The notes beneath the pieces are model-generated. The model was not told where the DNA came from, did not search any database, and worked only from the letters and a program-made list of their open reading frames with translations. The translations under genes and the position numbers were made by a program. This document shows, piece by piece, positions 2,860 through 43,685 of a stretch of 64,000 nucleotides of DNA. Origin of the DNA: an uncultured Bacteroidota bacterium (GTDB lineage Bacteria > Bacteroidota > Bacteroidia > B-17B0 > Aurantibacillaceae); the NCBI GenBank assembly GCA_937873155.1, contig CALMVZ010000009.1:1-64000 (forward strand). The letters are read 5' to 3'. Position 1 is the first letter of the stretch, and each line of letters starts with the position of its first letter.

Positions 2860-2904
2860 GCTACAAATTGTAGCAACACTAATTGTAATGAGGGCGTAAC
2901 TTTG
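2860..2904 (+). promoter_or_regulatory. palindromic operator plus -7 box (GCTACAAATTGTAGCAA-N20-TAACTTTG)
   Basis: A near-perfect palindrome, GCTACAAATTGTAGC, extended to GCTACAAATTGTAGCAA at 2860-2876, is followed after exactly 20 bp by a perfect -7 box TAACTTTG at 2897-2904. The identical 17-mer, spacer length and box occur at 15587-15631 on the other strand. The palindrome covers the -33 region, where a regulator would act. Confidence 0.75.
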
Positions 2905-2925
2905 AAGTTCTCTAGCTGTGCTGCC

Positions 2926-3306
2926 ATGAAACTTGTGCTAAAATTACCGAAAGATAAACTGCCTTTTATTGGTGTGCAGTTCAATAGTAATTACCAGGCG
3001 GGCAGGACCAACAGCGATCTTCTTCATCACCATGAGCATCTTTTTAAGATCCAACTTGAACCTGATAAGAAAGGAACCATTAAACTCAAATTGTATTGTG
3101 AGGACCTGGCTATCAGCAGGATTTATGAGGGCATTGAATATGATCAGTATCAACTCAAAAACTGGATGTATATGGTCTCGCGTTCGAAACAATTCAATTT
3201 CGGACATGTAACCATGGAAGAGAATAAACATATTATTTCAAAAGACTCCGCTTTCAGGATCTTTGTTATTAAATTGGATAAAGTCGAGTTGGTGGAGGAG
3301 ATGTAG
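2926..3306 (+). CDS. hypothetical protein with operator-type promoter
   Basis: Not recognised. The start is placed at ATG 2926 (MKLVLKLPKDKLPFIGVQFN), because the upstream in-frame TTG at 2902 is the last three bases of the -7 box and cannot be translated from that promoter. The product is 126 aa, soluble, with no signal peptide or membrane segment, rich in Lys, His and aromatic residues (DLLHHHEHLFKIQLEP). The leader would be about 17 nt. It shares a palindrome-plus-promoter module with the orphan integrase-domain gene at 15210-15563, so the two may be co-regulated. Confidence 0.65.
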   Translation: MKLVLKLPKDKLPFIGVQFNSNYQAGRTNSDLLHHHEHLFKIQLEPDKKGTIKLKLYCEDLAISRIYEGIEYDQYQLKNWMYMVSRSKQFNFGHVTMEENKHIISKDSAFRIFVIKLDKVELVEEM

Positions 3307-3360
3307 TGGAGTTTTTTTGAACTCTTTCCTTTTTTAAACTGATGCGAAATTAACGTAAAG

Positions 3361-3924
3361 CTACCTGCAAACAATATATTTTATTTCAATACCATTCTCG
3401 CTTTCGATGAGTTTACCAATGGTCTTATTTTTTCCGCAATATTCTTCGTCTGTTAAGTTTATTATCTTAAGATCATCTTTTTTGAATGCGCCTAACTGAT
3501 ATTTTATAACCGGCATGTTCAACTCTAATTCACCATCACCCTTTCCTTCGTATTGAACAACATAATTTTCTTTTTTATCAGTCCGGAAAATATAAAGTGA
3601 TGACAAACCTGATGCGACTAATTTTTTATAGATTCGAACCGCTTCTTTTTCTTCAAGGTCAGAAGTAATGGCGTAAGCAAAATCTTTTTCTTTGGTGGCG
3701 ATCTTCAGGCTATCGTAAATTTGTTTTTTTCTTACAGAGTTAGTCGTGGAATGCAGTAATTGGTCGCCTTTTAAAATTTGTTCTGCCAAAGATGTATTTG
3801 TTCCTACAGTGTTTGTGTGTTTTTTTGTGCTTGTCTGATTTTTTTCCGTGAAATTCGTTTTATTTCTGCAGGCGGCTAAAAGGGCGAGACTGATATAGAG
3901 TAAAGTGATAGTTCTTAAATGCAT
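3361..3924 (-). CDS. hypothetical lipoprotein
   Basis: A 187-aa protein with an N-terminal hydrophobic stretch ending in lipobox LLAAC (Cys19). A Thr/Asn-rich linker (residues 20-45) leads into an alpha/beta-looking domain with a conserved feel (EKEAVRIYKKLVASGLSSLYIF) and two late cysteines (in EEYCGKNK and IKYIVCR) that could pair in the periplasm. No family is recognised. It stands alone, facing away from the upstream gene cluster, and converges on the gene at 2926-3306. Confidence 0.65.
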   Translation of the reverse strand: MHLRTITLLYISLALLAACRNKTNFTEKNQTSTKKHTNTVGTNTSLAEQILKGDQLLHSTTNSVRKKQIYDSLKIATKEKDFAYAITSDLEEKEAVRIYKKLVASGLSSLYIFRTDKKENYVVQYEGKGDGELELNMPVIKYQLGAFKKDDLKIINLTDEEYCGKNKTIGKLIESENGIEIKYIVCR

Positions 3925-4055
3925 TTATCTTTATGATTTCTAAATCACAAAGTAAAACAATCGGCAACAATGCCACAATAGGTATTTATACTCAATTTTC
4001 AGTAGAAACTTACACAATCCCCACTTTCCGGAATAAGGAAATTTATTAAAATGTA

Positions 4056-5279
4056 TTAGTCTTTTGTGATCACCGCTTTTTGTGTGATAGTATTTTTAGC
4101 GCCATCGTATATTTTTACGAAATAAGTACCGCTCCTTACACTGTCAAGAATAAGATGACCGGTAATTTGTCCAGGAGTAATTGTAATTGTGCGCCACATT
4201 TTCCCTGTCACATCAACCAGGTCAACCTGAACTTTTTCTGCTGATGCTTTTTCTAAGATAATGGTAAGGTCATCGCTTCCGGGATTCGGATAAACTTTTA
4301 TCTGCGAATTGTTCGGTGATATTTCAGTGATACTTGTCGCCAATGGATTGCAAGAACACAGATTTGTGCTCCTGAAGTTTGTAATACTATTCGCGCCGGT
4401 ATTTGTTTCAGGTGCACTGGTCACAATAGTTCCGGTTGCAAGATCAAGCCCGATTATATTTTGGTTCCCGTCCTGGAAATAAAAGATATTATTCAAAGCA
4501 TCAATCGTTGCACCGCCCGCAGTTTGTCCATTCGGATTTATATTGGTAGGAGAAATTAAAGTGACCAAACCTGTAGTTGGATTTACTTTCGATAAATACA
4601 TTTGTGCAGGTGAATTTCTTCTTGCTAAACCATAGATCGTGGAATCTTTACAATTGTAAACAAAGCAATCAAACAAATTCGCATTTGAACTTGAATAACT
4701 TAGGGGAGGATTTGTTGCAACATTTCCGGTAACCATATCTACACCTGTAAATAAAAAAGAACCGTCTTCAAAATAAAAACGTTTGTTCACCGGATCGATC
4801 GTTGAAGGTGTTAAAATAGATCCGCTGCCAATAGTTGAAGCCGAAATATTCGTAACAACCCCGGTGTTCGGATTGATCTTAGCAAGATATAAACGTGTAG
4901 GTAATGTGGCACGAGCCAAACCGTAAATGGTAGAGTCAGCACAATTATAAGCAACCAGGTCAAAGAATGAAGCGAGCGGGTTGGTCATAGTTGGATTAGA
5001 AACTACATTCCCGGTAATAAGATCAACGCCTACAAATTGATTAGTTCCTGTTTCGTAATAATAAATATTTGTTTTAGGATTGATAGTGGCAAGGGAGCCA
5101 ACATAATTAGGACCCAGAGAAGAGCCTGATATATTAGTAACAGAACCTGTTGCGGGAGCCAGCTTTCCTAAATAAGTGGCAGGTCCTGGAGCAACAGCCA
5201 TTCCATAAATAGAATTAGCAGTTTGCGCCTGAATTAATATGGATGTAAATATGCTGAGAGTAAAAATCAATTTCTTCAT
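4056..5279 (-). CDS. T9SS type A sorting domain protein with three internal repeats
   Basis: A 407-aa secreted protein. Residues 1-20 are a signal peptide ending in QAQ. Three homologous units of about 90-97 residues follow (about 23-114, 115-211, 212-311), each with the order (S)IYGLAR, LxKxNPxTGxVTxIS, a TIDPxNxxFYF-like strand and GVDxxTGNVxxxP, as in beta-propeller blades. Residues 330-407 are a type A C-terminal domain (VYPNPGSDDLTI, DVTGK, GTYFVKIYDG), which directs outer-membrane translocation through T9SS. Cysteines end each unit (NCAD, NCKD, CSCN). The ligand is unknown. The gene is monocistronic or follows the sigma-factor operon after a terminator. Confidence 0.85.
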   Translation of the reverse strand: MKKLIFTLSIFTSILIQAQTANSIYGMAVAPGPATYLGKLAPATGSVTNISGSSLGPNYVGSLATINPKTNIYYYETGTNQFVGVDLITGNVVSNPTMTNPLASFFDLVAYNCADSTIYGLARATLPTRLYLAKINPNTGVVTNISASTIGSGSILTPSTIDPVNKRFYFEDGSFLFTGVDMVTGNVATNPPLSYSSSNANLFDCFVYNCKDSTIYGLARRNSPAQMYLSKVNPTTGLVTLISPTNINPNGQTAGGATIDALNNIFYFQDGNQNIIGLDLATGTIVTSAPETNTGANSITNFRSTNLCSCNPLATSITEISPNNSQIKVYPNPGSDDLTIILEKASAEKVQVDLVDVTGKMWRTITITPGQITGHLILDSVRSGTYFVKIYDGAKNTITQKAVITKD

Positions 5280-5310
5280 AACGTTGGCTTTTTGTATAGT
5301 AAATATAATA

Positions 5311-5345
5311 AAAAAAGCCCTGAAGTATAAAGACTGCAGGGCTTG
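5311..5345 (-). terminator. intrinsic terminator of the sigma-factor operon
   Basis: On the minus strand, CAAGCCCTGCAG pairs with CTTCAGGGCTT and is followed by a run of seven T. It sits immediately after the stop of the Spy-like gene. Confidence 0.8.
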
Positions 5346-5348
5346 TGC

Positions 5349-5822
5349 TTAATGCGGTGGAGGTGGCGGCGGGCCATGACTGAAGATATTCGCCAATTCA
5401 TCCACTAATTTCTCAAAATCTTTTTGTTGTTCAGGTTTGCAAAGGTTCTTTATATCCTCGAAATGCTGGTAATGTATGCTTTCTATTTGTGCCTGTACTT
5501 TAGCGATCCCGTCGATAGAATAATAAACAGTCGCTTTGTCAGCCTTGTTCTTTAAATTCGAATACAGATCTTTTTTCAATGTTAAAAGTGTTTCTTCATA
5601 TTCTCTCAGGTATGAACGGTGTTTTTGAATTAAGGTATCATATTTAGTTATTTGTACAGCATCCAAATGTAAACGTTCAATGATAAGATCGCGCGGGCCA
5701 CCTTTGTGATGCGGCGGGCCGTGATGTCCGGGACCTCTGCCTTTCAGCATGAATACAATAAGCAGGATATTCGAGATCAATAATCCAGCGATCAGGAATA
5801 TCAACAATCTGTTCTTATTCAT
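5349..5822 (-). CDS. periplasmic Spy/CnrX-like metal- or stress-sensor protein
   Basis: The start is placed at ATG 5822 (MNKNRLLIFLIAGLLISN), which overlaps the preceding anti-sigma gene by 8 nt; 157 aa. One N-terminal membrane anchor (residues 5-25) is followed by a His/Gly/Pro-rich segment (GPGHHGPPHHKGG), then a helical domain of LTxxQ type (LDAVQITKYDTLIQKHRSYL and later KLCKPEQQKDFEKLV-like helix) as in the Spy/CpxP/CnrX superfamily, ending GPPPPPPH. His clusters at both ends suggest metal contact (inference). As the third gene after a sigma and an anti-sigma factor, it matches the role of CnrX: a periplasmic sensor that controls the anti-sigma factor. Confidence 0.7.
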   Translation of the reverse strand: MNKNRLLIFLIAGLLISNILLIVFMLKGRGPGHHGPPHHKGGPRDLIIERLHLDAVQITKYDTLIQKHRSYLREYEETLLTLKKDLYSNLKNKADKATVYYSIDGIAKVQAQIESIHYQHFEDIKNLCKPEQQKDFEKLVDELANIFSHGPPPPPPH

Positions 5823-6078
5823 TGTAAAGTGAGTTAGAGGTTTGTAATGAGAACGCTTCAGATAGTTCAAATGAATTAGTTTGAGTGGTATTTGTTTTAC
5901 TGATAACACTGATATTAATAATGATCAGAGCAATCATACAAGCTGCAGCAACAACAGCCCATTTAACAGGAACTGTTTCCTGTACTTTGTTTTGTATGCG
6001 GTTTAATATGCGCGTATATAAGAATGGCGGTGCATCCACTTTTTTGATCTTTTCAAGAATATCTGCGGGGTGTGTCAT
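5815..6078 (-). CDS. small membrane anti-sigma factor (CnrY/RseA-like by context)
   Basis: An 87-aa protein with a cytoplasmic N-terminal helix region (residues 1-36, PADILEKIKKVDAPPFLYTRIL), one membrane segment (about 38-59, WAVVAAACMIALIIINISVI) and a short periplasmic tail. Size and topology fit small single-span anti-sigma factors. The motif PPFLYTRILNRI resembles the start of many Bacteroidota anti-sigma proteins. It lies 28 bp after the ECF sigma gene and overlaps the sensor gene by 8 nt, so the three are surely co-transcribed. The assignment rests mainly on context, because the sequence itself is too short for a firm family call. Confidence 0.7.
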   Translation of the reverse strand: MTHPADILEKIKKVDAPPFLYTRILNRIQNKVQETVPVKWAVVAAACMIALIIINISVISKTNTTQTNSFELSEAFSLQTSNSLYNE

Positions 6079-6106
6079 GTTCTTATAGGTTTAGACGATT
6101 TATGTT

Positions 6107-6634
6107 TTACTTTCCTTCGTTGTTGTGGTTTAACTTTTTTGCCAGTTTCGATTTAGCCCTTTGTACCAGTGATTCCACTGCTTTTGGGGACATATTCATG
6201 ATCTCAGCTGCTTCTGCCTGTGTTTTTTCTTCTATTTTCATTAGGATAAGGGCTGTCTTTTGATTATCCGGTAAGCCATTGATTAATATAAAAAGATTCT
6301 TTAGCTGTTCCTTCTCTTCCATCATTACACCCGGATGATTGAAGTCAGAGACCTGGTGTTTGGGTTCGTTATTCTCTTCGTGGAATAAGGAGGTGAAAAA
6401 CGAAAAACGTTTTTGCCGTTTCTTCGCTTTTATAAAATCAAGGGATTTATTAATGGTGATCCTGTAAAGCCAGGTGCTGTGTTTTGATTCTTGCCTGAAA
6501 GACTCGAGTTTCTCGTATGCACTTACAAAAACATCTTGTGTAATTTCCTCGGCATCTTCAATATTCTGCACATACTGAAGCGCTAAGTTGTAAACTAATT
6601 CCTTGTGTTCGTTGTATAGGTCTTCAAATTGCAC
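6107..6634 (-). CDS. ECF-family RNA polymerase sigma factor
   Basis: A 175-aa sigma-70 family ECF protein. Region 2 spans about residues 5-75, with DAEEITQDVFVSAYEKL and the STWLYRITINKSLDFIK helix that binds the -10 element. Region 4 spans about 110-165 (LPDNQKTALILMKIEEKTQAEAAEIM and the helix-turn-helix KAVESLVQRAKSKL). The start is GTG at 6634; a TATCTTTC box 3 nt upstream would give a leaderless mRNA. It heads a three-gene operon with an anti-sigma factor and a periplasmic sensor, so it probably drives an envelope or metal stress response and perhaps its own operon. Confidence 0.9.
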   Translation of the reverse strand: MQFEDLYNEHKELVYNLALQYVQNIEDAEEITQDVFVSAYEKLESFRQESKHSTWLYRITINKSLDFIKAKKRQKRFSFFTSLFHEENNEPKHQVSDFNHPGVMMEEKEQLKNLFILINGLPDNQKTALILMKIEEKTQAEAAEIMNMSPKAVESLVQRAKSKLAKKLNHNNEGK

Positions 6635-6882
6635 GCGGAAAGATACAATTTATAAAGTAAGAGAAAATCTGTCTTTTACATAAAAAATAGGGTTATTATG
6701 TTTTTATCTCATCTTATAAACATTCCTGTTACAAAAATCCTATAAAGGCTTATATAATAATGTAAAATGTTAACCAACTGTTAAAACAACCTGATTACCT
6801 GTTAAAATGCCTGTTTCACAGAGTAATTGTAAAGCGAAATAAACGATTATTTAATTTTATAGCAGTAACAACTAAAAATGCG

Positions 6883-7329
6883 ATGAAAAGTAACATAACA
6901 GCAAGAGTGAGCGAGACCATCAACGCATCAACCTATAGAGTATGGGAAGCACTTACCAGCCCGGAACTTATAAGGAAATATTTTTTCGGCACCAATGTGC
7001 ATACAGATTGGAAGGTTGGGAGCACTATAGAATTTGATGGCGAATATGAAGGTAAAGCATACCATGACAAAGGAACTATCCTGAGCTTTAAAGATAAAGA
7101 ATTATTGAAATTCAATTATTGGAGTTCCGTGTCCGGCATAGAAGATAAACCGGAAAATTATGCGATCATCAATTATAAATTAAAAGGCGATTACAATAGT
7201 ACCACAATTACCATTATCCAGGAAAATATTCCTGATGAAAAAACCAAGCAACACTCTGTTCAAAGCTGGAAAAAGGTGTTAAGCAGTTTAAAAGAAGTGG
7301 TAGAGAAAAGAGAAACCGTACTGCATTAG
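6883..7329 (+). CDS. SRPBCC (AHSA1-like) domain protein
   Basis: A 148-aa single-domain protein of the START/Bet v1-like (SRPBCC) superfamily, AHSA1 branch. The opening ARVSETINASTYRVWEALTSPELIRKYFFG is the typical first strand plus helix, followed by DWKVGSTIEFDGEYEGKAYHDKGTIL and the C-terminal long helix (SVQSWKKVLSSLKEVVEKR) that closes the hydrophobic pocket. Such proteins bind small lipophilic ligands; the actual ligand is unknown. A terminator follows at 7352. The 248 bp between this gene and the divergent sigma gene hold both 5' regions; no strong -7 box is seen on this side. Confidence 0.85.
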   Translation: MKSNITARVSETINASTYRVWEALTSPELIRKYFFGTNVHTDWKVGSTIEFDGEYEGKAYHDKGTILSFKDKELLKFNYWSSVSGIEDKPENYAIINYKLKGDYNSTTITIIQENIPDEKTKQHSVQSWKKVLSSLKEVVEKRETVLH

Positions 7330-7351
7330 GCAGACGTGAACGAATCTTTTG

Positions 7352-7375
7352 AAGAGCCTTTCGGGCTCTTTTTTA
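7352..7375 (+). terminator. intrinsic terminator
   Basis: AAGAGCC-TTTC-GGGCTCTT followed by T residues, 22 bp after the SRPBCC stop. The short GC stem with a TTTC tetraloop is a classical rho-independent signal. Confidence 0.85.
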
Positions 7376-7395
7376 TTCCTCCTCGTCCGATTTAA

Positions 7396-7623
7396 TTACT
7401 TCAGAGTGCATTCATACTCTAATTGAGTTGCGGAATCGTATTCATAACTGTCACAGGTTTTTTGAGCATTCTCTTTTTTAGCGTTTTTTATTAAATATTT
7501 GAGCTCACTTTGATTTGCCGATCTAGGAACGCATGTGCAATTATAGGTTTTAGTACAGCTAAAAAAGATAAAACAAACAGCTAAGAGTGTAATTAAACCG
7601 CCTGTTAGCAAAAGTGGCTTCAT
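7396..7623 (-). CDS. small cysteine-containing lipoprotein (paralogue of 36590-36814)
   Basis: The start is placed at ATG 7623 (MKPLLLTGGLITLLAVC), giving 75 aa; the longer in-frame start would overlap the sugar-transferase gene. The lipobox is IFFSC, followed by TKTYNCTC. Two further cysteines lie near the C-terminus (KTCDSYEYD, EYECTLK). The same C-x-K-x-YNC-x-C pattern after the lipid cysteine and the late KDKC/TYC pattern occur in the protein at 36590-36814, so both belong to one small family of disulfide-bearing surface lipoproteins. Function unknown. Confidence 0.65.
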   Translation of the reverse strand: MKPLLLTGGLITLLAVCFIFFSCTKTYNCTCVPRSANQSELKYLIKNAKKENAQKTCDSYEYDSATQLEYECTLK

Positions 7624-7627
7624 TTTA

Positions 7628-9049
7628 TTATTTCCCTCTTCCTTGTACAACGATCAGGACAGTGTGAACAAGAATTTTAAAATCGAGAAGTAAACTCATA
7701 TTCTCTATATACAGAATATCAAATTTCAAACGGTCGATCATCTGGTCAACATTTTCAGCGTAACCGTATTTTACCTGTCCCCATGAAGTAATACCCGGAC
7801 GCACCTTTTGTAAATGTTTATAATGCGGCGCGCGCTGAACGATCTGATCAATGAAGAATTGTCTTTCAGGCCGAGGGCCAACTAAGCTCATATCACCCAT
7901 TAATACGTTTAAGAACTGAGGCATTTCATCCAGACGTACTTTCCGTAAGAAGCGCCCGAAGCCTGTAACACGCGGATCACTTTCACTTGAAAGGGCAGGA
8001 CCGGTTTTTTCCGCATCACAATACATCGTCCGAAATTTATAAATATTGAAAGGATGTCCGTGAATACCGATCCTTTCTTGTTTGAAGAATGCAGGGCCAC
8101 GTGAAGTTGCTTTTACCAGGATAATAAGCAGAAGATAGAACCAGCTCAGCCCGACTAATACAAGAACAGATAAACTCACATCAATAAAACGTTTCACTGC
8201 AACCTGCCAGTCAGGAATGATCGTATTCTTGATCTCTATAAGCGGAGTACCGAAGATCGAATTCATTTTCACTTGTCCCGATAAGATATCGTACATATCC
8301 GGAATGATCTTTATTACTAATCCAAGATCGCTGAGTTCGTTTACGATCTGTTTCAGGTATTCATGCTCTTCTGTTTCCAAAGCGATGATCACTTCTTCAA
8401 CATTATTTTCCTGGATAATCTTTTTAATGTCGTGATATTCTCCAAGATGAGGCAATATCTTTTTTAATTCTTCCGAATAACCATTCTTTCCTTCGATATG
8501 AACGAAGCCGATAAATGTATTGCCAATTCCTTTCTTCAGCGAATTGATCTCGTTAAGCGTACTTAAAGCGCGTTCGTTACTTCCGATGATCACCGTACGG
8601 AAACCAAAATCACGTTTACCAATTCTGTAATTAGTGATGCTTGATAAAATAAAACGTAGAACTGCCGTAAACAAAAAATGAAGTCCGAAAAGGGTAAAGA
8701 ATAATTTGTAATAGAACCTGTAATTGGTCACATAATCATCCAGCAGCAGCACGAAGAACACAATGGTAACACCTAACAACGAAACCATGAAGGTTTGTAC
8801 AAATTCGTTGATACGTGAACGGCGTAATACGTTATTGTAAGTACCAACTAAATAATAGAACAATAACCAGGCTAAAGGGATGATGATAATACTTTTGAAG
8901 AATTGGGCATCAAAAAACACATCAGGAACCGAACCGATCTTTGCAGGATCAATTTTACTTTTACGGTAAACATAAAACGCAGTCCACGCTGCCGCTGCAG
9001 CGATCAGGTCGAAGAAAACATATTTTATGGTATGTAAGGTCTTATTCAA
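7628..9049 (-). CDS. exopolysaccharide polyprenyl glycosylphosphotransferase (undecaprenyl-phosphate sugar transferase)
   Basis: A 473-aa WcaJ/WbaP-type polyisoprenyl-phosphate hexose-1-phosphate transferase that starts lipid-linked polysaccharide assembly at the inner membrane. The N-terminal half has about four membrane segments (residues 10-130) followed by a CoA-binding-like Rossmann domain (about 145-260, FRTVIIGSNERALSTL). The C-terminal catalytic domain starts with KRFIDVSLSVLVLVGLSWFY (re-entrant helix) and shows the hallmark KFRTM, SDPRVTGFGRFLRKVRLDEMPQ and MGDMSLVGPRPE motifs. The full length matches the family. It follows a lipoprotein gene by 1 nt and lies in one strand block with a Gfo/Idh oxidoreductase. 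Confidence 0.93.
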   Translation of the reverse strand: MNKTLHTIKYVFFDLIAAAAAWTAFYVYRKSKIDPAKIGSVPDVFFDAQFFKSIIIIPLAWLLFYYLVGTYNNVLRRSRINEFVQTFMVSLLGVTIVFFVLLLDDYVTNYRFYYKLFFTLFGLHFLFTAVLRFILSSITNYRIGKRDFGFRTVIIGSNERALSTLNEINSLKKGIGNTFIGFVHIEGKNGYSEELKKILPHLGEYHDIKKIIQENNVEEVIIALETEEHEYLKQIVNELSDLGLVIKIIPDMYDILSGQVKMNSIFGTPLIEIKNTIIPDWQVAVKRFIDVSLSVLVLVGLSWFYLLLIILVKATSRGPAFFKQERIGIHGHPFNIYKFRTMYCDAEKTGPALSSESDPRVTGFGRFLRKVRLDEMPQFLNVLMGDMSLVGPRPERQFFIDQIVQRAPHYKHLQKVRPGITSWGQVKYGYAENVDQMIDRLKFDILYIENMSLLLDFKILVHTVLIVVQGRGK

Positions 9050-9050
9050 A

Positions 9051-9917
9051 CTAGTAACTTAAAATTTTAAGGTTATCGATCCAGTATTCACTTTTCCCGC
9101 CTTCTGAACTTTTTAAGGCACGCACATACCAACCGCAATTGCTGCCTGTTAACGTACTGACACCAAAACTTAGCTGGATATAGATCTTATTCCATTCAGG
9201 ACTTGCATTAACTCCTGCAACGAATAAATAATTCGAAGTTGCATCATAAACACCAACCTCAAATGCCTCGGTACATTTGTAATTCATTTCCAGGTAAACC
9301 GGGGCGCCATTCTTTGGAAGCGGAAATAGTGCTACGGATTCAAATTGTCCTACACGCCTGTTATCATCAAGCGCGAAATACATACACTTAGCGCCCTCAT
9401 AAATATCAGGAGCAGGTGTCATTGAATTAGTGAGGATAGTGAAAGTTGTATCTGTATTACTTGATTTTTGAATGCTGATTCCTGAAGTTGTGCCAAAGCC
9501 TTCAAAATTCTCTAACCAGCGGAACTTTGTACCTGATTTGTAACTGAAAGTAAAATTACGGTTAACAACAACACCGGGATTAACGGCTGTATCCAGGGTT
9601 AAAGGTGCATAAAATTCGTAAGGCTGACGGGTTGATGATATCCCGTTATTTTTTATTCCCGGAAAGAAAATTAATTCTGTCGGCCCTGTTGATGGAACAG
9701 GAAAAGTACTGCCTAAGGGGAATGCTCCTTTGAACTGTCCGTTCACATAATACCACATGTCGGTAATTTTGTGGCTCGCAGTTCCCTGCACTGTTGCATC
9801 TGTAATTGCAAGAGAGATACTTCCCGGTTTAATTAAAAAAGCAAGTGGCGCTTTTTGTTTTTCTTTGTTACAACCGATAAAAAGTAATAAGAGTAAAATT
9901 ATTCCAAATAGCCTCAT
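9051..9917 (-). CDS. hypothetical lipoprotein with beta-sandwich-like C-terminus
   Basis: The start is placed at ATG 9917 (MRLFGIILLLLLFIGC), because the upstream extension overlaps the previous gene and lacks signal-peptide character; 288 aa. Lipobox LFIGC, Cys16. The middle part has a proline-rich beta region (GAFPLGSTFPVPSTGP), and the C-terminal 130 residues (YEGAKCMYFALDDNRRVGQF to SEYWIDNLKILSY) read like a carbohydrate-binding-type jelly roll. The stop is 1 nt before the sugar transferase start, so the two are co-transcribed. Function unknown; a surface polysaccharide link is only inferred from context. Confidence 0.65.
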   Translation of the reverse strand: MRLFGIILLLLLFIGCNKEKQKAPLAFLIKPGSISLAITDATVQGTASHKITDMWYYVNGQFKGAFPLGSTFPVPSTGPTELIFFPGIKNNGISSTRQPYEFYAPLTLDTAVNPGVVVNRNFTFSYKSGTKFRWLENFEGFGTTSGISIQKSSNTDTTFTILTNSMTPAPDIYEGAKCMYFALDDNRRVGQFESVALFPLPKNGAPVYLEMNYKCTEAFEVGVYDATSNYLFVAGVNASPEWNKIYIQLSFGVSTLTGSNCGWYVRALKSSEGGKSEYWIDNLKILSY

Positions 9918-9987
9918 CAAAATTTTTATACCGAAGGTATCCCTTCGGGAAGGCGCAAAAGTACAGTTGTTTTTAAAATTTCGGAAG

Positions 9988-10962
9988 CTATTTTGTGGTC
10001 CGGTGCTGTATTTTTTCGTCAATACAGTAAGCTAAACTTAACACCCCAATTGCGTCCTCAATTGTAACAACCGGCTTCGAGCCCGTTATTATACTATTAT
10101 GGAACGCCAACAGCTCTTCTTTTATTGCGTTTGTTGGTAAAATAATAGGATGTTGAAAAACCAGCTCTTTATCTGGGGATTTTGTACCTGAAACAACAAC
10201 TAAATTTTTAGAATTTTTAGATGCATTTCTGATCTCAATAACTTCAGTTACTTTATTCAAAAGATCTATGTTTATTATGCCATTGGCCTGATACACTTTT
10301 ATATTTCGCATATTACTGAGCGACATGCGGTTAGAGGTAAGATTCGCAATAGTTCCATTATCAAATTCGATCCGTGCATTTACAAGGTCGACAGTTTCGC
10401 TTATAGTTTTAGACCCAAAAGCCTGAATCGATTTGATATTGCTCCTAACAATGGTCAATAAAAGATCAAGATCATGGATCATCAGGTCCAACGTAACTGA
10501 AACATCCGTCCCTCTTGGATTGTATATAGCAAGTCTTTGTATTTCAATAAATTGCGGCTTATTAATAAAAGGAACAGCTGAAATGAAAGCAGGGTTGAAA
10601 CGTTCAACATGTCCAACCTGTATTTTAACACCGGCTTCTTTTTCCAGGCCCATTAAAAGTTTAGCTTCTTCAACTGTTGGAGTGACAGGTTTTTCTAAAA
10701 AAACATGTTTCCCCTTTTTTATGGCGGTTGAGGCTATTTCAAAATGTGTATTACTTGGGGTAACAATTATCAGTGCCTCGCAATCATCCATTAATTCTGG
10801 TCCGGAAGAATATGCTTTTACGTTATATTGTTTTGAGATATCAGAAGATGTTTGCTTATCAATATCGTAAAAACCAATTAATTGAAATGCACTTGTTTCC
10901 AATAAGATCCGTAAATGAATTTTGCCCAGATACCCAACTCCGATTAAACCAACTTTTATCAT
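9988..10962 (-). CDS. Gfo/Idh/MocA family NAD(P)-dependent oxidoreductase
   Basis: A 324-aa sugar-type dehydrogenase. The N-terminal Rossmann domain shows VGLIGVGYLGKIHLRIL (residues 4-20), then a SNTHFEIASTAIKKGKHVFLEKPVTPTVEEA segment with the family's conserved EKP motif (Lys about residue 93). The C-terminal domain begins VGHVERFNPAF and holds the active-site region with LDLMIHDLDLLL (His-Asp). Members reduce or oxidise nucleotide sugars or inositols. The neighbourhood with a glycosyl-phosphotransferase suggests a sugar precursor for surface polysaccharide (inference). The downstream lipoprotein gene begins after 70 bp. Confidence 0.9.
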   Translation of the reverse strand: MIKVGLIGVGYLGKIHLRILLETSAFQLIGFYDIDKQTSSDISKQYNVKAYSSGPELMDDCEALIIVTPSNTHFEIASTAIKKGKHVFLEKPVTPTVEEAKLLMGLEKEAGVKIQVGHVERFNPAFISAVPFINKPQFIEIQRLAIYNPRGTDVSVTLDLMIHDLDLLLTIVRSNIKSIQAFGSKTISETVDLVNARIEFDNGTIANLTSNRMSLSNMRNIKVYQANGIINIDLLNKVTEVIEIRNASKNSKNLVVVSGTKSPDKELVFQHPIILPTNAIKEELLAFHNSIITGSKPVVTIEDAIGVLSLAYCIDEKIQHRTTK

Positions 10963-11049
10963 GAGGAATATTAAACCACAAAACTATTATTTAAAACATA
11001 ATTGTTAGCAAGAAATATTCTTTTTACAGAAGAATGCAATTTATCGCTC

Positions 11050-11057
11050 TAATTTTG
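11050..11057 (+). promoter_or_regulatory. -7 promoter box (TAATTTTG)
   Basis: A perfect TAnnTTTG match, 5 nt before the first possible start codon (TTG 11063) and 20 nt before GTG 11078 of the methyltransferase gene. Confidence 0.55.
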
Positions 11058-11062
11058 GTGTT

Positions 11063-11755
11063 TTGGGGGAACGGACCGTGTTTTATAAAGTAAGTAAAGA
11101 GGACGAATATCTTTTTCAGGGCAAGCGCAAACGCCTGGTGGATCAGCTGCGAACTAAAGGCATAACAAATGCCGATGTATTAAAGGCAATTGAAACAATT
11201 CCACGCCATTTATTTTTCGATCAGTCAACAGCCAGGCCGGCGATGTTAGAACATGCTTATTCTGATAAAGCTTTACCTATCGGGGCAGGACAAACTATTT
11301 CGCATCCTTTTACAGTTGCATTTCAGACTGAAAAATTAGAATTGAAAGCAGGCGATAAAGTTCTTGAGATAGGTACAGGTTGTGGTTACCAAACTGCAAT
11401 GCTTGCCGAAATGGGTGCAAAAGTATTCAGTATTGAGCGTCAAAAAAGTTTATACGATAAAACAAAATTATTTCTTCCGTATCTCGGTTACAGATCTGTC
11501 CGTTTTTTTTACGGCGATGGTTATAAAGGTCTTCCGCAGCATGCACCGTTCGATAAAATTGTAGTAACGGCGGGCGCTCCATACATTCCAAATGATCTTT
11601 TGGTCCAACTTAAAGTAGGCGGTATTCTTGTTATTCCAGTTGGTGAAGGCGAGCAACAGGAAATGAATGTGTTGAAAAAAACTTCTGAGCAATCGTTTGA
11701 AAAACAAGTAATTGGAAAATTCAAGTTCGTACCCTTTTTGCAGAACAAAGCGTAA
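11063..11755 (+). CDS. pcm: protein-L-isoaspartate(D-aspartate) O-methyltransferase
   Basis: A 230-aa SAM-dependent repair enzyme that methylates isoaspartyl residues in damaged proteins. Seen: LRTKGITNADVLKAIETIPRHLFF (N-terminal helix of the family), AYSDKALPIGAGQTISHPFTVA (substrate motif around GQTIS), VLEIGTGCGYQTAMLAEMG (SAM loop) and APFDKIVVTAGAPYIPNDLLVQLKVGGILVIPVG. Length is normal. The annotated TTG start lies 5 nt after a -7 box; GTG at 11078 (VFYKVSKEDE) is an equally good start with a more normal leader. No ATG precedes the conserved region. Confidence 0.92.
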   Translation: MGERTVFYKVSKEDEYLFQGKRKRLVDQLRTKGITNADVLKAIETIPRHLFFDQSTARPAMLEHAYSDKALPIGAGQTISHPFTVAFQTEKLELKAGDKVLEIGTGCGYQTAMLAEMGAKVFSIERQKSLYDKTKLFLPYLGYRSVRFFYGDGYKGLPQHAPFDKIVVTAGAPYIPNDLLVQLKVGGILVIPVGEGEQQEMNVLKKTSEQSFEKQVIGKFKFVPFLQNKA

Positions 11756-11814
11756 CCTGCTCAAATTAAGTAATTTAACAAAAAGTTGTTTATAACCTGC
11801 TATTCACAATATTA

Positions 11815-11841
11815 TTGTAATGCTAAAACCCAGTAAATTTG
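11815..11841 (+). promoter_or_regulatory. promoter of the outer-membrane protein gene (TTG-N16-TAAATTTG)
   Basis: A perfect -7 box TAAATTTG (11834-11841) with TTG 16 bp upstream, close to the 17-23 bp spacing known for Flavobacterium-type promoters. The ATG follows 28 nt later. Confidence 0.6.
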
Positions 11842-11869
11842 CAGTACATAAAAACTAAACAAAACAATT

Positions 11870-12850
11870 ATGAAAAAATCAATCGCTCTATTAGCCTTAG
11901 CATTCGGTGTGACCGGTGCTTTTGCTCAAGACTTAACCTCTAAAAAAGGTGAGCCGATTCTACCTGAGGCCGAAGATTGGTCAATAGGAGTTGACGCTGT
12001 CCCTTTTTTAAACTATGCCGGTAACTTTATTGGCGGTAATGGTTCTAACTCTGCTCCGGGTTGGAATAACTATGGTGCAAACCAAACCATTGTTGCTAAA
12101 AAATTTACTGATGCGCAAAATGCTTACCGCGTAATTTTCCGTTTAGGAATGCGCAATCAATCATGGAAGAATGAGATCGCAGCTCCACAAGCTTCTTCTG
12201 CTGCTGCAGTTAACTTCCCTACTAAAACTAACGTTGTTGAAGACAAAGCTACTGCTTCAAGTTCTTTCGTTGGTATCGGTGTAGGTATGGAGAAACGCAA
12301 AGGTAAGACTCGTTTACAAGGGTTTTATGGTGCTGATATCTTTATTTGGTATTCTTCAAGCAAACACAAATTTAAATATGGTAACTCTCTAAGCCAGGGT
12401 GTAACAGCTGACCCTAACGTTGATGTGGATAACTCAACTGATTGGTCGACTATGGCTCCGGGTACTTTCACAACTTCTAACTGGGATAACACTGCTCCAA
12501 CAATTACAGGTGTTAACAACGTTACCGGTTGGAGAAAGATCTCTGAAAAACCAGGTGGACAATTTGGTTTAGGTGTTCGTGCATTTATCGGTGCAGAATA
12601 TTTCGTATTACCTAAGATCTCTATCGGTGGTGAATTCGGTTTTGGTGTTGGTTTAGCAATGAACTTAAAATCAAAAACTGTTTACGAAGCTGAAGGTATT
12701 GACGGTGGTGGTTTTGAAACAAAATCTGATATTACTGTTACTGCAAAGCGTGGTATGGAAGTAAAGTTAGATACAGACAGAAATGCTGCTAACTCGTCTA
12801 CTTACAACTTAGCTCCATCAGGAACTTTACGTTTAAATTTCCATTTCTAG
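11870..12850 (+). CDS. outer-membrane beta-barrel protein
   Basis: A 326-aa protein with a clean signal peptide (MKKSIALLALAFGVTGAFAQ, cleavage after AFAQ). The mature part alternates hydrophobic and polar residues with many Gly and aromatic residues, and ends in an aromatic C-terminal strand (SGTLRLNFHF), typical of barrels inserted by BamA. Strands such as GFYGADIFIWYSS and GEFGFGVGLAMNLKS are visible. A good promoter, a short leader and a downstream terminator make it a single-gene unit, and codon use is uniform (GGT, GCT, AAC), suggesting high expression. Substrate or role unknown. Confidence 0.8.
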   Translation: MKKSIALLALAFGVTGAFAQDLTSKKGEPILPEAEDWSIGVDAVPFLNYAGNFIGGNGSNSAPGWNNYGANQTIVAKKFTDAQNAYRVIFRLGMRNQSWKNEIAAPQASSAAAVNFPTKTNVVEDKATASSSFVGIGVGMEKRKGKTRLQGFYGADIFIWYSSSKHKFKYGNSLSQGVTADPNVDVDNSTDWSTMAPGTFTTSNWDNTAPTITGVNNVTGWRKISEKPGGQFGLGVRAFIGAEYFVLPKISIGGEFGFGVGLAMNLKSKTVYEAEGIDGGGFETKSDITVTAKRGMEVKLDTDRNAANSSTYNLAPSGTLRLNFHF

Positions 12851-12873
12851 TCTAAAGACTATGTTCTATATTA

Positions 12874-12902
12874 AGCCCTCGCAGAAATGCGGGGGCTTTT
12901 TT
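12874..12902 (+). terminator. intrinsic terminator
   Basis: AGCCCTCGCA-GAAA-TGCGGGGGCT followed by six T, directly after the barrel gene. Confidence 0.88.
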
Positions 12903-12979
12903 ATATCCTGAAGCCTACGTACTCCTGTAACCGCTCATGTAAAAAATCACAAAAACGACTTTTTGTAATTACTATTCGG

Positions 12980-12987
12980 TAATTTTG
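12980..12987 (+). promoter_or_regulatory. -7 promoter box (TAATTTTG), leaderless layout
   Basis: A perfect TAnnTTTG match that ends 5 nt before the ATG at 12993. A TTG lies only 14 bp upstream, shorter than the usual spacer. Confidence 0.55.
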
Positions 12988-12992
12988 TATCC

Positions 12993-14237
12993 ATGATCTG
13001 GCGATACCTGTTTTTTTTTACGCTTATAGTTCTTATTGAGCTCTATTTTTTACAGGGCGTGAAAACATTTGCCCGCGACTTTTCACAGAGGAACAGGAAT
13101 ATCATTCTTTACACCGCTTACTTTCTGTTCGGGGTAAATCTTTTGCTGGGACTTGTAGGTTTTTTTTATCCGCCACCAAATTGGAACGGCTTTTTCAGGT
13201 TCCTGTCTTCTGTGTTTCTTGTAATGGTAGTTTGCAAATTATTAGGATGTAGCTTTCTTATTATTGATGATATTATCAGGCTGTTCCGTTGGTTAGCTAA
13301 AGCATTATTCAAAGTCGGGACAACTACTGATTTGTCCGGTAATGGTATTTCAAGGATAAAATTCATTAGTCAGTTAGCAATTACTTTTACTGTTATACCT
13401 GCAGTTTCATTTTTATACGGGATGATCCGCGGAGCCTATAAATACCGTGTTCACAATGTAAAAGTAGATTCGCCTAATTTGCCGGAAGCATTTAACGGGT
13501 TTAAGATAGTACAGATCTCTGATATGCATACCGGTTCTTTCATGAGCACAACGCCGATACAAACTGCTTTTGAGATCATCATGAAACAGAACGCAGATCT
13601 TATTTTGTTCACCGGCGATCTTGTAAATAATGTGGCGAGCGAAACAAACGGGTTCATTGAAGAATATCAGAAACTAAAAGCACCACATGGTGTTTATTCT
13701 GTTCTCGGAAATCACGATTATGGTGATTACGTACAATGGGAAAGCCAGACAGCTAAATTTGAGAACCTGGAGGCCATTAAAAAAGTACATGCTGATTCCG
13801 GTTGGAAATTATTAATGAACGAGCATGTGGCTTTAGAAAAAAACGGAGAAAAGATAGCTCTTTTAGGAATTGAGAACTGGGGCGGAGGGAATTATTTCCA
13901 TAAGTACGGAAAAATGGACCTTGCCTACAAAGGAACTGAAGATTATAAATTCAAAATATTAATGAGCCACGACCCATCACATTGGGATAAACAAGTGCGT
14001 ACCGAGTATCCTGATGTTGACCTAACGCTCAGCGGACATACCCACGGCATGCAATTTGGAATTGAGATCCCGGGGTTTAAATGGAGTCCTGTTCAATATC
14101 TCTACAAACAATGGGCAGGATTGTATAAACAGGATAATCAATACTTGTATGTGAACCGTGGATTGGGATTTTTAGGTTATCCCGGCCGTTTGGGTATTTG
14201 GCCTGAGATCACAGTGATCGAACTTAATAAAGTATAA
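12993..14237 (+). CDS. membrane-anchored metallophosphoesterase
   Basis: A 414-aa calcineurin-like phosphoesterase. The N-terminal 150 residues carry four to five membrane segments (starting WRYLFFFTLIVLIELYFL). The catalytic domain (about residues 165-405) shows all metal-binding motifs in order: QISDMHTGS (D-x-H), FTGDLVNN (GD), VLGNHDYGDY (GNHD), ILMSHDPSHWD and LTLSGHTHGMQFG (GHTH). Family members cleave phosphoester bonds, often in UDP-diacylglucosamine, nucleotides or phospholipids; the substrate here is unknown. The layout with N-terminal helices resembles YkuE/YaeI-type proteins. The -7 box 5 nt upstream suggests a leaderless mRNA. Confidence 0.9.
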   Translation: MIWRYLFFFTLIVLIELYFLQGVKTFARDFSQRNRNIILYTAYFLFGVNLLLGLVGFFYPPPNWNGFFRFLSSVFLVMVVCKLLGCSFLIIDDIIRLFRWLAKALFKVGTTTDLSGNGISRIKFISQLAITFTVIPAVSFLYGMIRGAYKYRVHNVKVDSPNLPEAFNGFKIVQISDMHTGSFMSTTPIQTAFEIIMKQNADLILFTGDLVNNVASETNGFIEEYQKLKAPHGVYSVLGNHDYGDYVQWESQTAKFENLEAIKKVHADSGWKLLMNEHVALEKNGEKIALLGIENWGGGNYFHKYGKMDLAYKGTEDYKFKILMSHDPSHWDKQVRTEYPDVDLTLSGHTHGMQFGIEIPGFKWSPVQYLYKQWAGLYKQDNQYLYVNRGLGFLGYPGRLGIWPEITVIELNKV

Positions 14238-14258
14238 ATTATCTTTTAAATTATTCCC

Positions 14259-14354
14259 GTGGGAAATAACGCGCCGGGTGTTCCTCAGCAGTTTGAAGTA
14301 ATTCAGAACGTTGGTGATGAAGTCGGGATTTTATCTTTATTTAAAAAGAGATAG
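14259..14354 (+). other. possible gene remnant (31-codon open segment)
   Basis: A GTG-initiated frame reads VGNNAPGVPQQFEVIQNV and continues to LFKKR before TAG. Its composition looks coding, but it is too short to be a domain. It lies in the 128-bp gap after the metallophosphoesterase and may be the tail of a lost gene. Confidence 0.25.
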
Positions 14355-14365
14355 TTGCTAAATGA

Positions 14366-14701
14366 TCATTTCTTTTTTACCGGCTTAGTTTTTATCGCGA
14401 CTTTATTATAAGCTTGCTCAAGCGCATCTTTCAATACATCTTTCCTTACTTTTTTCAGTTCAATGTAAGTCGCACCTTTTTGTCCCCATTTATTTGGAAC
14501 AGGATAAATAATTGTTTTATCATAAGCAGAAAAAACTGACTGCTGAACAAGATCGAACATCAAACAAGCCCGGTTCTCTTTCTCATCCAGTGTCGCAAAT
14601 ATTTTTTTGTTGATGCGGAAAGAAGTTTTCTCGAAATGTGGTTCTTCGGTTGTGTGTGGAAGAGATAAAGCTAATTTCCTAAAAGTGTCGATACTTACCA
14701 T
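14366..14701 (-). CDS. MmcQ/YjbR family protein
   Basis: A 111-aa single-domain protein of the MmcQ/YjbR (CyaY-like fold) family, annotated as possible DNA-binding proteins but without a proven function. Diagnostic segments are RKLALSLPHTTEEPHFEKTSFRI (residues 7-29), KIFATLDEKENRACLMFDL and WGQKGATYIELKKVRKDVLKDALEQAYNKVA near the C-terminus. The Lys-rich tail (KTKPVKKK) is common in Bacteroidota members. It stands alone next to the inverted-repeat-bounded GxxExxY gene. Confidence 0.85.
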   Translation of the reverse strand: MVSIDTFRKLALSLPHTTEEPHFEKTSFRINKKIFATLDEKENRACLMFDLVQQSVFSAYDKTIIYPVPNKWGQKGATYIELKKVRKDVLKDALEQAYNKVAIKTKPVKKK

Positions 14702-14748
14702 CAGTATAAAAATAGGAAGAAATTTTGGTTATGAGAGAGTTTTTTGTT

Positions 14749-15188
14749 TCTCGCAAAGACGCTAAGTCGCAAAGATCAGAGGTTGTTTACAATTCGTGTT
14801 ATTCCGTTTTTTATTAATGGTTCATTGAAATTGATCAGCAATCCGAGTTTCAGTCCTGTTAATTTCAAATAAGTCAGCAGTTGTTTTGGATGAACCGGGG
14901 CAATAACGTCAACCGACTTTAATTCTATGATTACTTTCCTTTCAACTATTAGATCTGCTCTAAAACCAATCTGCATTTTTAATTCATTCCAAACCACAGG
15001 AATTCCTTGCTGTCTTTCAACGGTCAGACCTTGGTTGGTCAGTTCATAAAACATTATTTCTTCATAAACGGATTCAAGTAATCCAGGGCCGAGGGTACAA
15101 TGAACTTGAAAAGCAGTATTTACAATAGTTTTTGATATTTCATTTTCCACACTAAATTTATTCTTTGCGTCTTCGCGTCTTTGCGAGA
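14749..15188. mobile_element. candidate small cassette: GxxExxY gene between 27-bp inverted repeats
   Basis: The left repeat (14749-14775, starting TCTCGCAAAGACGC) and the right repeat (15162-15188, the same sequence on the other strand) match at 25 of 27 positions. They enclose exactly one gene: the left repeat runs into its stop codon, and the right repeat begins 12 bp before its GTG start. No target-site duplication is obvious next to the repeats. The unit is 440 bp long. Confidence 0.6.
14776..15150 (-). CDS. GxxExxY family protein (PD-(D/E)XK nuclease fold)
   Basis: A 124-aa protein of the GxxExxY family, named for the motif seen here as GLLESVY (residues 23-29). The nuclease-like core shows GFRADLIVE (Asp66) and IIELKS (Glu76, Lys78), the PD-(D/E)XK arrangement, so metal-dependent DNA cleavage is plausible but unproven for the family. 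Length is typical. The start is GTG at 15150. The gene fills the whole space between two 27-bp inverted repeats, which suggests that gene and repeats move or spread together. No promoter with a -7 match is visible; the right repeat lies where one would be. Confidence 0.85.
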   Translation of the reverse strand: MENEISKTIVNTAFQVHCTLGPGLLESVYEEIMFYELTNQGLTVERQQGIPVVWNELKMQIGFRADLIVERKVIIELKSVDVIAPVHPKQLLTYLKLTGLKLGLLINFNEPLIKNGITRIVNNL

Positions 15189-15209
15189 CATTTTAACCCG
15201 TGCTGAAGA

Positions 15210-15563
15210 TCAAATAAACAATGCGTATTGTTTCGCCCGCGCTGCTTGTTGTTTGGTTAGGCGACCCGGTTCTGTTACGGGAGATTCGTAAGAGATCTTT
15301 GTAAGAACAGGGGCGGCGCTTAATAAAGGTTCGTTTTTTATTGCTTTATAATCTAAATAGGCTTTGCCTTTAAAGCAGTTCATTACTTCATTCAACAAAC
15401 CTGCACGCTTCTCTACATACCAGGTGCGGTACAATTTACTCCAGCGGGCGCCCGGCAGAGTTTTGATCGAATTAACTAATTCCTCACTGTAAGAAAAGTC
15501 TAACCTAACCACCTCGTGGTTCTCGTAAACCATTTTGTTTAAATGCACAACTGAATAATTCAT
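15210..15563 (-). CDS. orphan integrase N-terminal domain protein (tyrosine recombinase arm-binding type)
   Basis: 117 aa. Residues 18-75 (VRLDFSYSEELVNSIKTLPG, ARWSKLYRTWYVEKR, CFKGKAYLDYKAIK) match the N-terminal domain seen at the start of many Bacteroidota phage-type tyrosine recombinases, where a core-binding and catalytic domain should follow. Here the protein stops after a short divergent tail; no R-H-R-Y catalytic domain is encoded in any nearby frame. It could be a truncated integrase or a stand-alone DNA-binding protein. Against decay stand an intact frame and a promoter with a palindromic operator (15587-15631) identical in layout to that of the gene at 2926. Confidence 0.6.
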   Translation of the reverse strand: MNYSVVHLNKMVYENHEVVRLDFSYSEELVNSIKTLPGARWSKLYRTWYVEKRAGLLNEVMNCFKGKAYLDYKAIKNEPLLSAAPVLTKISYESPVTEPGRLTKQQAARAKQYALFI

Positions 15564-15586
15564 AGCTTTCTGTTTTAATTACACAA

Positions 15587-15631
15587 CAAAGTTACTATGT
15601 ATTAAAGCAATGTCTTGCTACAATTTGTAGC
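15587..15631 (-). promoter_or_regulatory. palindromic operator plus -7 box (GCTACAAATTGTAGCAA-N20-TAACTTTG)
   Basis: On the minus strand the 17-mer spans 15631-15615, the spacer is exactly 20 bp, and the -7 box TAACTTTG spans 15594-15587, 23 nt before the ATG at 15563. Palindrome, spacer length and box are identical to 2860-2904. Confidence 0.75.
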
Positions 15632-15739
15632 ATTATTTATTTTTTAAATACCTGATAAACAAATTATTACATTGTAAATTGGTATACTGCAAAAATACAG
15701 CCCTACCTTTTTGCTACAAACTCACTCATAAAATAGCCT

Positions 15740-15747
15740 TATATTTG
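15740..15747 (+). promoter_or_regulatory. -7 promoter box (TATATTTG) overlapping the nominal start
   Basis: A perfect TAnnTTTG match whose last base is the first base of the nominal GTG start at 15747; transcription would therefore begin downstream of it. A half-site of the palindrome (TTGCTACAAA, 15711-15720) lies upstream. Confidence 0.6.
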
Positions 15748-15764
15748 TGGCCTCGGTCATTCAC

Positions 15765-30797: not shown

Positions 30798-30861
30798 CGG
30801 GTTTGGTGTTTCGGGTTGTTTATGAACTTAAAATAACCCGAACCCCGAAACACCAAACCCG
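30798..30861. terminator. long hairpin, probable bidirectional terminator or repeat
   Basis: CGGGTTTGGTGTTTCGGG (30798-30815) and its exact reverse complement (30844-30861) form an 18-bp stem with a 28-nt loop. No long T-run follows, so it may be one of the intergenic inverted repeats rather than a classical terminator. Confidence 0.6.
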
Positions 30862-36484: not shown

Positions 36485-36581
36485 TAGTTAGGACTGAAGC
36501 CCATTAATTATAGTGCATTAACCCCGGACTTAAGTCCGGGGTTAGAAGAATGAAGATGAGAAAGGACTTTAGTCCTAACTA
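36485..36581. repeat. three-hairpin intergenic repeat, copy 2
   Basis: Outer arms TAGTTAGGACTGAAGCCC and GGACTTTAGTCCTAACTA flank a central hairpin CCCCGGACTTAAGTCCGGGG (36522-36541). Same layout as 2283-2376. Confidence 0.85.
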
Positions 36582-43240: not shown

Positions 43241-43685
43241 AAAACCCCGAAGGGGTAAAATTTCATCCCTCCGGGATTTGGAATTTTTCTCTGAACATTT
43301 CTATAATAATTTCAGTCCTTAGGACTTTTTTGCTGTTAGTCAATCATTGCAAATTATTTAATCCCGAAAGTGATGTTATAATTATAAAAAGCCAGCCATA
43401 GTACAAAATAAAACCCCGAAGGAGTGAAACTTCATCTCTCCTGCTGTTAGCCAATCATTATAATAAATATTAATCCCGAAGGGATGATATAATTATAGAA
43501 AACCAACCATTGTAAGAAATAAAACCCCGAAGGGGGTGAAACTTCATCTCTCCTGCTGTTAGCCAACCATTATAGTAAATATTAATCCTGAAGGGATGAT
43601 ATAATTATAGAAAACCAACCATGGTAAGAAATAAAACCCCGAAGGGGTGAAATTCTAAATATTAAATTTCACCCCTTCGGGTTAA
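43241..43685. repeat. tandem array of CCCCGAAGGGG palindromes (about 112-bp period)
   Basis: Units start at about 43241, 43410, 43521 and 43633 with AAAACCCCGAAGG. Units 2 and 3 are 111-112 bp and nearly identical; each holds two palindromes (CCCCGAAGGGG and ATCCCGAAGGGAT) and the shared text CTCTCCTGCTGTTAGCCAA. Unit 1 is about 169 bp with an insertion, and the last is partial and closes with an inverse palindrome (CCCCTTCGGG at about 43672). The array fills the 535-bp gap between the WG-repeat and pruA genes, and no gene is seen in it. Confidence 0.88.

Follow-up and report, generated by a model that had tools for sequence, protein, structure and literature searches.

The S24 repressors of Bacteroidetes run the SOS response through CTAA-N5-TTAG or GGA-N5-TCC operators, and degenerate variants of the dyad have been reported to be functional (main text of Sanchez-Osuna et al. 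2021, PMC8565304). One divergent functional variant described there is the site of the Elizabethkingia anophelis SOS regulator, TTAC-AAATT-GTAA. Here we analyse a 17-mer palindrome, TGCTACAAATTGTAGCA, that occurs twice in a stretch of 64,000 nucleotides (hereafter, the window; GenBank assembly GCA_937873155.1, contig CALMVZ010000009.1, positions 1 to 64,000) from an uncultured Bacteroidota bacterium of the family Aurantibacillaceae, ahead of genes for proteins of 126 and 117 amino acids (aa). We conclude that the palindrome is very probably the operator of an SOS response under a non-canonical LexA-type repressor in this uncultured lineage, a reading drawn from comparison of sequences.

The system resembles that of PMC8565304, as its main text describes it, in having an HTH_3–S24 repressor with an Ala-Gly site and a Ser-Lys dyad, autoregulation, and a dyad-N5-dyad palindrome, and the two have recA, dinB, ruvB, radC and a GIY-YIG exonuclease (COG0847) as common targets. 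In view of this agreement, which covers domains and catalytic residues as well as autoregulation, the dyad-N5 form and the core targets, we classify the system as a variant of the published one, with binding at the box predicted. The E. anophelis site has the same centre, AAATT, and the same dyad-N5 form as the window boxes, whereas it differs from them in the outer base of the dyad and its family has repressor paralogues (main text of PMC8565304). An initial annotation of the window had proposed an undescribed regulon with a fixed promoter architecture and a link to DNA damage or mobility; the single regulon, the architecture and the link to damage and mobile-type genes all hold, whereas ‘undescribed’ gives way to the fit with PMC8565304.

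Targets in this lineage that go beyond those in the main text of PMC8565304 are ORF6N, Y1_Tnp, DUF559 and HigB-type genes, tyrosine recombinases, and the 126-aa and 117-aa genes. That main text mentions no transposase, KilA or ORF6N, and integrase appears there only in the title of a reference; the target list looks new. In the open-access PMC literature, the 17-mer was not found, ORF6N and SOS were co-mentioned only in passages unrelated to such regulation, and REP (repetitive extragenic palindromic)-associated tyrosine transposases met LexA only where E. coli rayT was tabulated with Sigma70 alone.

Two predicted operators with one promoter architecture

A search allowing three mismatches places the two exact copies of the SOS box at 2859–2875 on the forward strand (box 1) and 15616–15632 on the reverse strand (box 2). 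At both copies a gap of 21 bp separates the box from TAACTTTG (2897–2904, forward; 15587–15594, reverse, at the 117-aa gene), which we take to be a ‘−7 element’ and which belongs to a genus-wide consensus. Bacteroidota promoters are numbered by their −33 and −7 positions. The coordinates, fixed spacing and shared element of the initial annotation were thus reproduced, and its view that chance was an unlikely cause agrees with four strand-wise matches (two places, up to three mismatches) in the window, compared with 0.30 expected in shuffles. It had placed the ATG codons 21–23 nucleotides (nt) after the box; the distances of 21 and 23 nt are in fact those from TAACTTTG, and the box lies about 50 nt ahead of the codons.

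A degenerate second operator, TGCTTTAATACATAGTA (15593–15609, reverse strand), lies 23 bp downstream of box 2 and shares two bases with the start of the −7 element. The window contains no CTAY-N5-RTAG dyads beyond the two boxes. The half-site TTGCTACAAA that had been noted ahead of a TonB-type receptor gene is indeed present at 15711, as the sole copy of this 10-mer in the window, whereas the other half of the dyad is absent. With no second half and no dyad ahead of the gene, the receptor was rejected as a target of the regulon.

A probable regulon of repair and mobile-type genes

In the genome that contains the window (G000; 4.85 Mb in 39 contigs), a search for the box at up to three mismatches yields 51 strand-wise matches, compared with 15 for a reversed-pattern control. 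Together with TAnnTTT, it stands ahead of recA, radA, radC, a DnaQ–GIY-YIG gene, dinB and ruvB; a comM/YifB-like gene has the box and lacks the exact −7 element. Other boxed genes encode GIY-YIG, Y1_Tnp transposase, ORF6N and KilA-N proteins. Gene names at the best sites were read from the sequence, and families were taken from domain scans. Some matches (L011, L013, L038 and L042) lie within long open frames and were taken as chance.

Across the genus, the pattern CTAY-N5-RTAGY-N21..23-TAnnTTT is found in all eight genomes, at 125 places compared with 31 for the reversed pattern. Our downstream analysis covered 117 distinct sites. Eight places were excluded: in G052, the promoter of the 117-aa gene and two places at the 126-aa homologue; in G053, the 117-aa promoter and one recombinase promoter; and in G056, one recombinase promoter and two unfetched places. 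The spacer has a single length at 93 of the 117 sites, is one base longer at 23 and one base shorter at one. The resulting consensus is TGCTACAATTTGTAGCAA-N20-TAANTTTG, with the dyad CTAY-N5-RTAG.

We scanned 105 downstream proteins, setting aside five sites without an open reading frame, five sites of the window families, a cut-off copy of the 117-aa gene (L229) and a long open frame (L285). RecA follows the box architecture in 8 of 8 genomes. Among the first 25 of 45 families, the scan returned ORF6N (17 proteins), Y1_Tnp (12), GIY-YIG (12), DUF559 (9), RecA (8), RuvB (5), DinB-type IMS (5), RadC (4), RNase_T exonuclease (4) and Radical_SAM (4). RadA/Sms matches also occur among the boxed proteins, as do single examples of HigB-type, KilA-N, PDDEXK_3 and 23S_rRNA_IVP proteins and a RecQ-like helicase (L267, assigned by reading its sequence). 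Viewed from the families in the same eight genomes, a box is present at 21 of 28 ORF6N matches (including a few fragments) and at 13 of 25 Y1_Tnp matches, where a box was defined as having up to three degenerate mismatches, lying within 450 nt and being followed after 21 or 22 bp by a −7 element. The scan of the genome and its relatives that the initial annotation had suggested thus places both repair genes and mobile-type genes behind the box.

Some family genomes, such as G003, G011, G015 and G016, have a second dyad-like stretch after several boxes, its end overlapping the −7 element (GTAGTAATTTT). These stretches were noted rather than counted, and suggest that tandem operators are common in the family genomes.

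A candidate LexA-type repressor that tracks the box

The candidate regulator is a 259-aa HTH_3–S24 protein (G000, contig C13:24889–25665; HTH_3 52.6 bits, cut-off 23; Peptidase_S24 33.7 bits, cut-off 23.3). All 54 proteins of the alignment retain its Ala107-Gly108, Ser144 and Lys183. Two boxes 23 bp apart precede its own gene, the second ending 2 nt ahead of the ATG. A box also lies upstream of all 30 best-matching homologues (own included), mostly ending at or a few nucleotides before the start codon, in a count made without a shuffle control (up to three degenerate mismatches, up to 320 nt upstream).

Repressor matches were found in 80 of the 87 genomes of the family. Where there is no match, boxes number 9 compared with 27 for the control (7 genomes), and where the best match is at most 61% identical, 39 compared with 39 (12 genomes). 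The counts are 653 and 230 at 64–80% identity (60 genomes), and 125 and 31 at 86% or more (8 genomes). Boxes exceed the reversed-pattern control in 64 of the 68 genomes with a repressor at least 64% identical; elsewhere there is no excess by group, and the single genomes there with an excess are G076 and, to a smaller degree, G038, G047, G048, G063 and G066. The co-conserved helix-turn-helix (HTH) regulator that the initial annotation had suggested looking for was found, with a box excess that follows its identity across the 87 genomes. Ranked by identity of the repressor, the closest named records are metagenome-assembled genomes (MAGs) that bear the label Sphingobacteriaceae bacterium or Bacteroidia bacterium, and 52 of 53 among the matches listed are MAGs.

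The motif, its spacing, the gene sets, the autoregulatory boxes, the catalytic residues and the co-variation with the repressor are all visible in the genomes themselves, and are consistent with the following model. The 259-aa repressor, as a dimer, would bind TGCTAY-N5-RTAGCA a short way ahead of the TAnnTTTG element, at a box that abuts the promoter on its upstream side, and would thereby exclude RNA polymerase. On DNA damage, RecA filaments would induce the repressor to cut itself at Ala107-Gly108 through Ser144 and Lys183. Cleavage would then derepress the regulon, and both window genes would be SOS-induced. Binding, repression, cleavage and induction are thus predicted steps. An anonymous palindrome would in this way become a defined SOS regulon for an uncultured group of Bacteroidota, the box consensus of which predicts targets.

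Two small protein families behind the box

Two small protein families can be named as probably SOS-induced. The 126-aa protein (2926–3306, forward strand), a predicted SOS target, belongs to a lineage-restricted family with homologues in 20 of the 87 family genomes by a first homology search and in 25 with a profile; the order, as sampled here, consists of the same 87 genomes. The profile found no member in 391 other genomes drawn from across the phylum, with up to ten first-look candidates scored per genome. A correctly spaced box lies within about 200 nt of 19 of the 23 aligned members, compared with 0.03 in shuffles and two on the other strand.

The protein had been called unrecognised, and no curated family matched it above the cut-off. 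Scans of the family with Pfam and PHROGs gave only weak matches, each in 1 of 23 members, a sequence search of the PDB found nothing, and PADLOC had no match to the protein. An AlphaFold2 model is confident (mean pLDDT 95.5) and predicts a mixed alpha/beta fold with no convincing structural match (Foldseek best E 0.12 against the PDB and 0.023 against viral structures; VIA Z at most 3.1), an absence of relatives that is not proof of a new fold. Our guess is that the protein acts in DNA-damage tolerance, growth arrest or the control of elements.

The 117-aa protein (15210–15563, reverse strand) was initially annotated as an integrase N-terminal-type protein, and it does resemble the N-terminal domain found in tyrosine recombinases of the Bacteroidota, with which it aligns. 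A box at the correct spacing precedes all five loci of this gene in the genus, compared with 0.02 in shuffles and none on the other strand, and at all five, the window’s included, a 17-mer like the second operator lies 23 bp downstream, overlapping the −7 element. The model of this stand-alone protein (pLDDT 74.8) suggests a HARP/XPB damage-recognition-like fold: HARP is the best Foldseek match (probability 0.96, E 0.038), and VIA gives XPB a Z of 6.5 (root mean square deviation 1.9, 58 residues) and HARP a Z of 4.1 (49 residues). Rows of eIF1 type (4mo0, Z 5.7) fall within one Z unit of XPB, so the fold assignment is tentative.

In its predicted fold, the protein comes tentatively closest to the XPB damage-recognition domain and the SMARCAL1 HARP domain. 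Unlike them, it is bacterial, has no helicase attached and has no significant sequence match; the Pfam HARP model (PF07443) scores 11.9 bits on its sequence, compared with a cut-off of 25. PADLOC returned one weak match (E 0.012), and no record in a phage collection matches either the 126-aa or the 117-aa protein at E 0.01. Most likely, the 117-aa protein is a stand-alone domain that binds branched DNA and either descends from the N-terminal domain of tyrosine recombinases or gave rise to it.

SOS-boxed tyrosine recombinases

Integron integrases are under SOS control, according to the account in PMC3108266, and the genomes analysed here also have tyrosine recombinases under apparent LexA-type control. 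These recombinases (loci L071–L095) are mostly about 380 aa long and begin with a HARP-like domain; a correctly spaced box precedes 16 of 25, compared with 0.07 in shuffles and one on the other strand. The box is absent from recombinases of about 540–560 aa (L083, L084 and L090). The one boxed protein tested, L073, matches XerA and integron-integrase models best, and scores 191.5 with the integron integrase model TIGR02249, below its cut-off of 265. In contrast to the integron integrases described in PMC3108266, the boxed recombinases have the additional N-terminal HARP-like domain. Three of the six fetched stretches (L209–L211; L212–L214 were left out) contain no cassette-like (attC) array beside the recombinases, only two-copy direct repeats. 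Given these stretches and the score of L073, we rejected an integron reading of the boxed recombinases.

Weighing the alternatives

Several observations count against an SOS operator of this kind. The dyad here is CTAY/RTAG, and by exact letters it falls outside the published group (CTAA/TTAG in the main text of PMC8565304). Judged by the reversed control, about a quarter of the genus places may be chance. Of the 23 aligned 126-aa members, two (L045 and L050) show no box within the 320 nt searched, and the exact −7 element is missing at L051 and L057. Four genomes with a repressor at 64–80% identity have no box excess (G059, 0 compared with 4; G050 and G083, each 6 compared with 7; G041, 6 compared with 6). 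G076 has an excess (10 compared with 4) despite only a 34% repressor match in its assembly.

The TAnnTTTG element is frequent in Bacteroidota, and a palindrome could by coincidence stand beside it; this has a vanishingly small probability in our estimation and we rejected it, as it is already refuted by counts that far exceed shuffles and reversed-pattern controls in the window, the own genome, the genus and the gene families, and by a nearly fixed spacer among the 117 genus sites. It is also very unlikely that the box is owned by another dimeric HTH regulator, for instance one of BlaI/MecI/CopY type or another XRE protein, and merely overlaps SOS genes. TACA-N3-TGTA does resemble BlaI/CopY half-sites and the genome holds four further weak matches to the HTH part of the repressor, but recA, dinB, ruvB and radC all have the box, as does the gene of the S24 repressor, and the excess of boxes follows repressor identity. 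Somewhat less remote, and still improbable, is that, behind a real operator, the 117-aa gene is what remains of a decaying integrase and has simply kept its promoter. The protein matches only the N-terminal part of the approximately 380-aa recombinases, 16 of 25 of which share the correctly spaced box. However, the five genus copies are full length (117–128 aa), the others are 60–91% identical to that of the window, and all have a conserved C-terminal tail; for the G000–G057 pair, the first 87 codons give a dN/dS of 0.04 (dS is saturated in most of the other pairs), and the locus is syntenic in G000, G057, G052 and G053. Loss of the box at these genes in close relatives would have spoken against the regulon that the initial annotation proposed; the box is instead retained in both families, at the frequencies given above.

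The 117-aa neighbourhood and the mobile-type genes

In G057, G052 and G053, the 117-aa gene is flanked by an aminotransferase gene (by Pfam, tested for G057) and a metallophosphoesterase-like gene (by reading). G000 has the same two flanks and, between the 117-aa and aminotransferase genes, the TonB-type receptor gene (window 15747–18299), which is absent from that position in the other three. The next gene behind the 117-aa gene varies: it encodes a GxxExxY protein (PDDEXK_3; 14776–15150, reverse strand) in G000, GIY-YIG in G057 and DUF1801 in G052 and G053, and in G058, in another context, it is again GIY-YIG. In G000, the GxxExxY gene is possibly co-transcribed with the 117-aa gene. GIY-YIG followed by an HTH gene is among the variants at this position (window 14776–15210, loci L067–L070), which resembles an exchange site. 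A repeat-like stretch, TTTGCGTCTTCGCGTCTTTGCGAGA, lies between the two genes at 15164–15188.

From its targets, the regulon would place mobile-type genes of this lineage under the influence of DNA damage as systematically as repair genes. A speculative extension, which we would sooner doubt than accept, is that the SOS promoter is a module shared by mobile or variable single genes (ORF6N, Y1_Tnp, GIY-YIG, DUF559, HigB-type and GxxExxY). Such promoters might travel with these genes or receive them, and a large, distributed mobilome might then be switched on simultaneously by damage. The HARP-like recombinases and the 117-aa domain would be the damage-recognising partners of this traffic, one exchange site of which would be the position that follows the 117-aa gene.

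REP-like repeats accompany REP-associated transposases elsewhere. The window contains GC-rich REP-like palindromes or inverted repeats at 2315–2342, about 36520–36543 and about 30816–30860, and several Y1_Tnp genes of the same genome are SOS-boxed. A direct repeat with a period of 112 bp lies at about 43427–43610 of the window.

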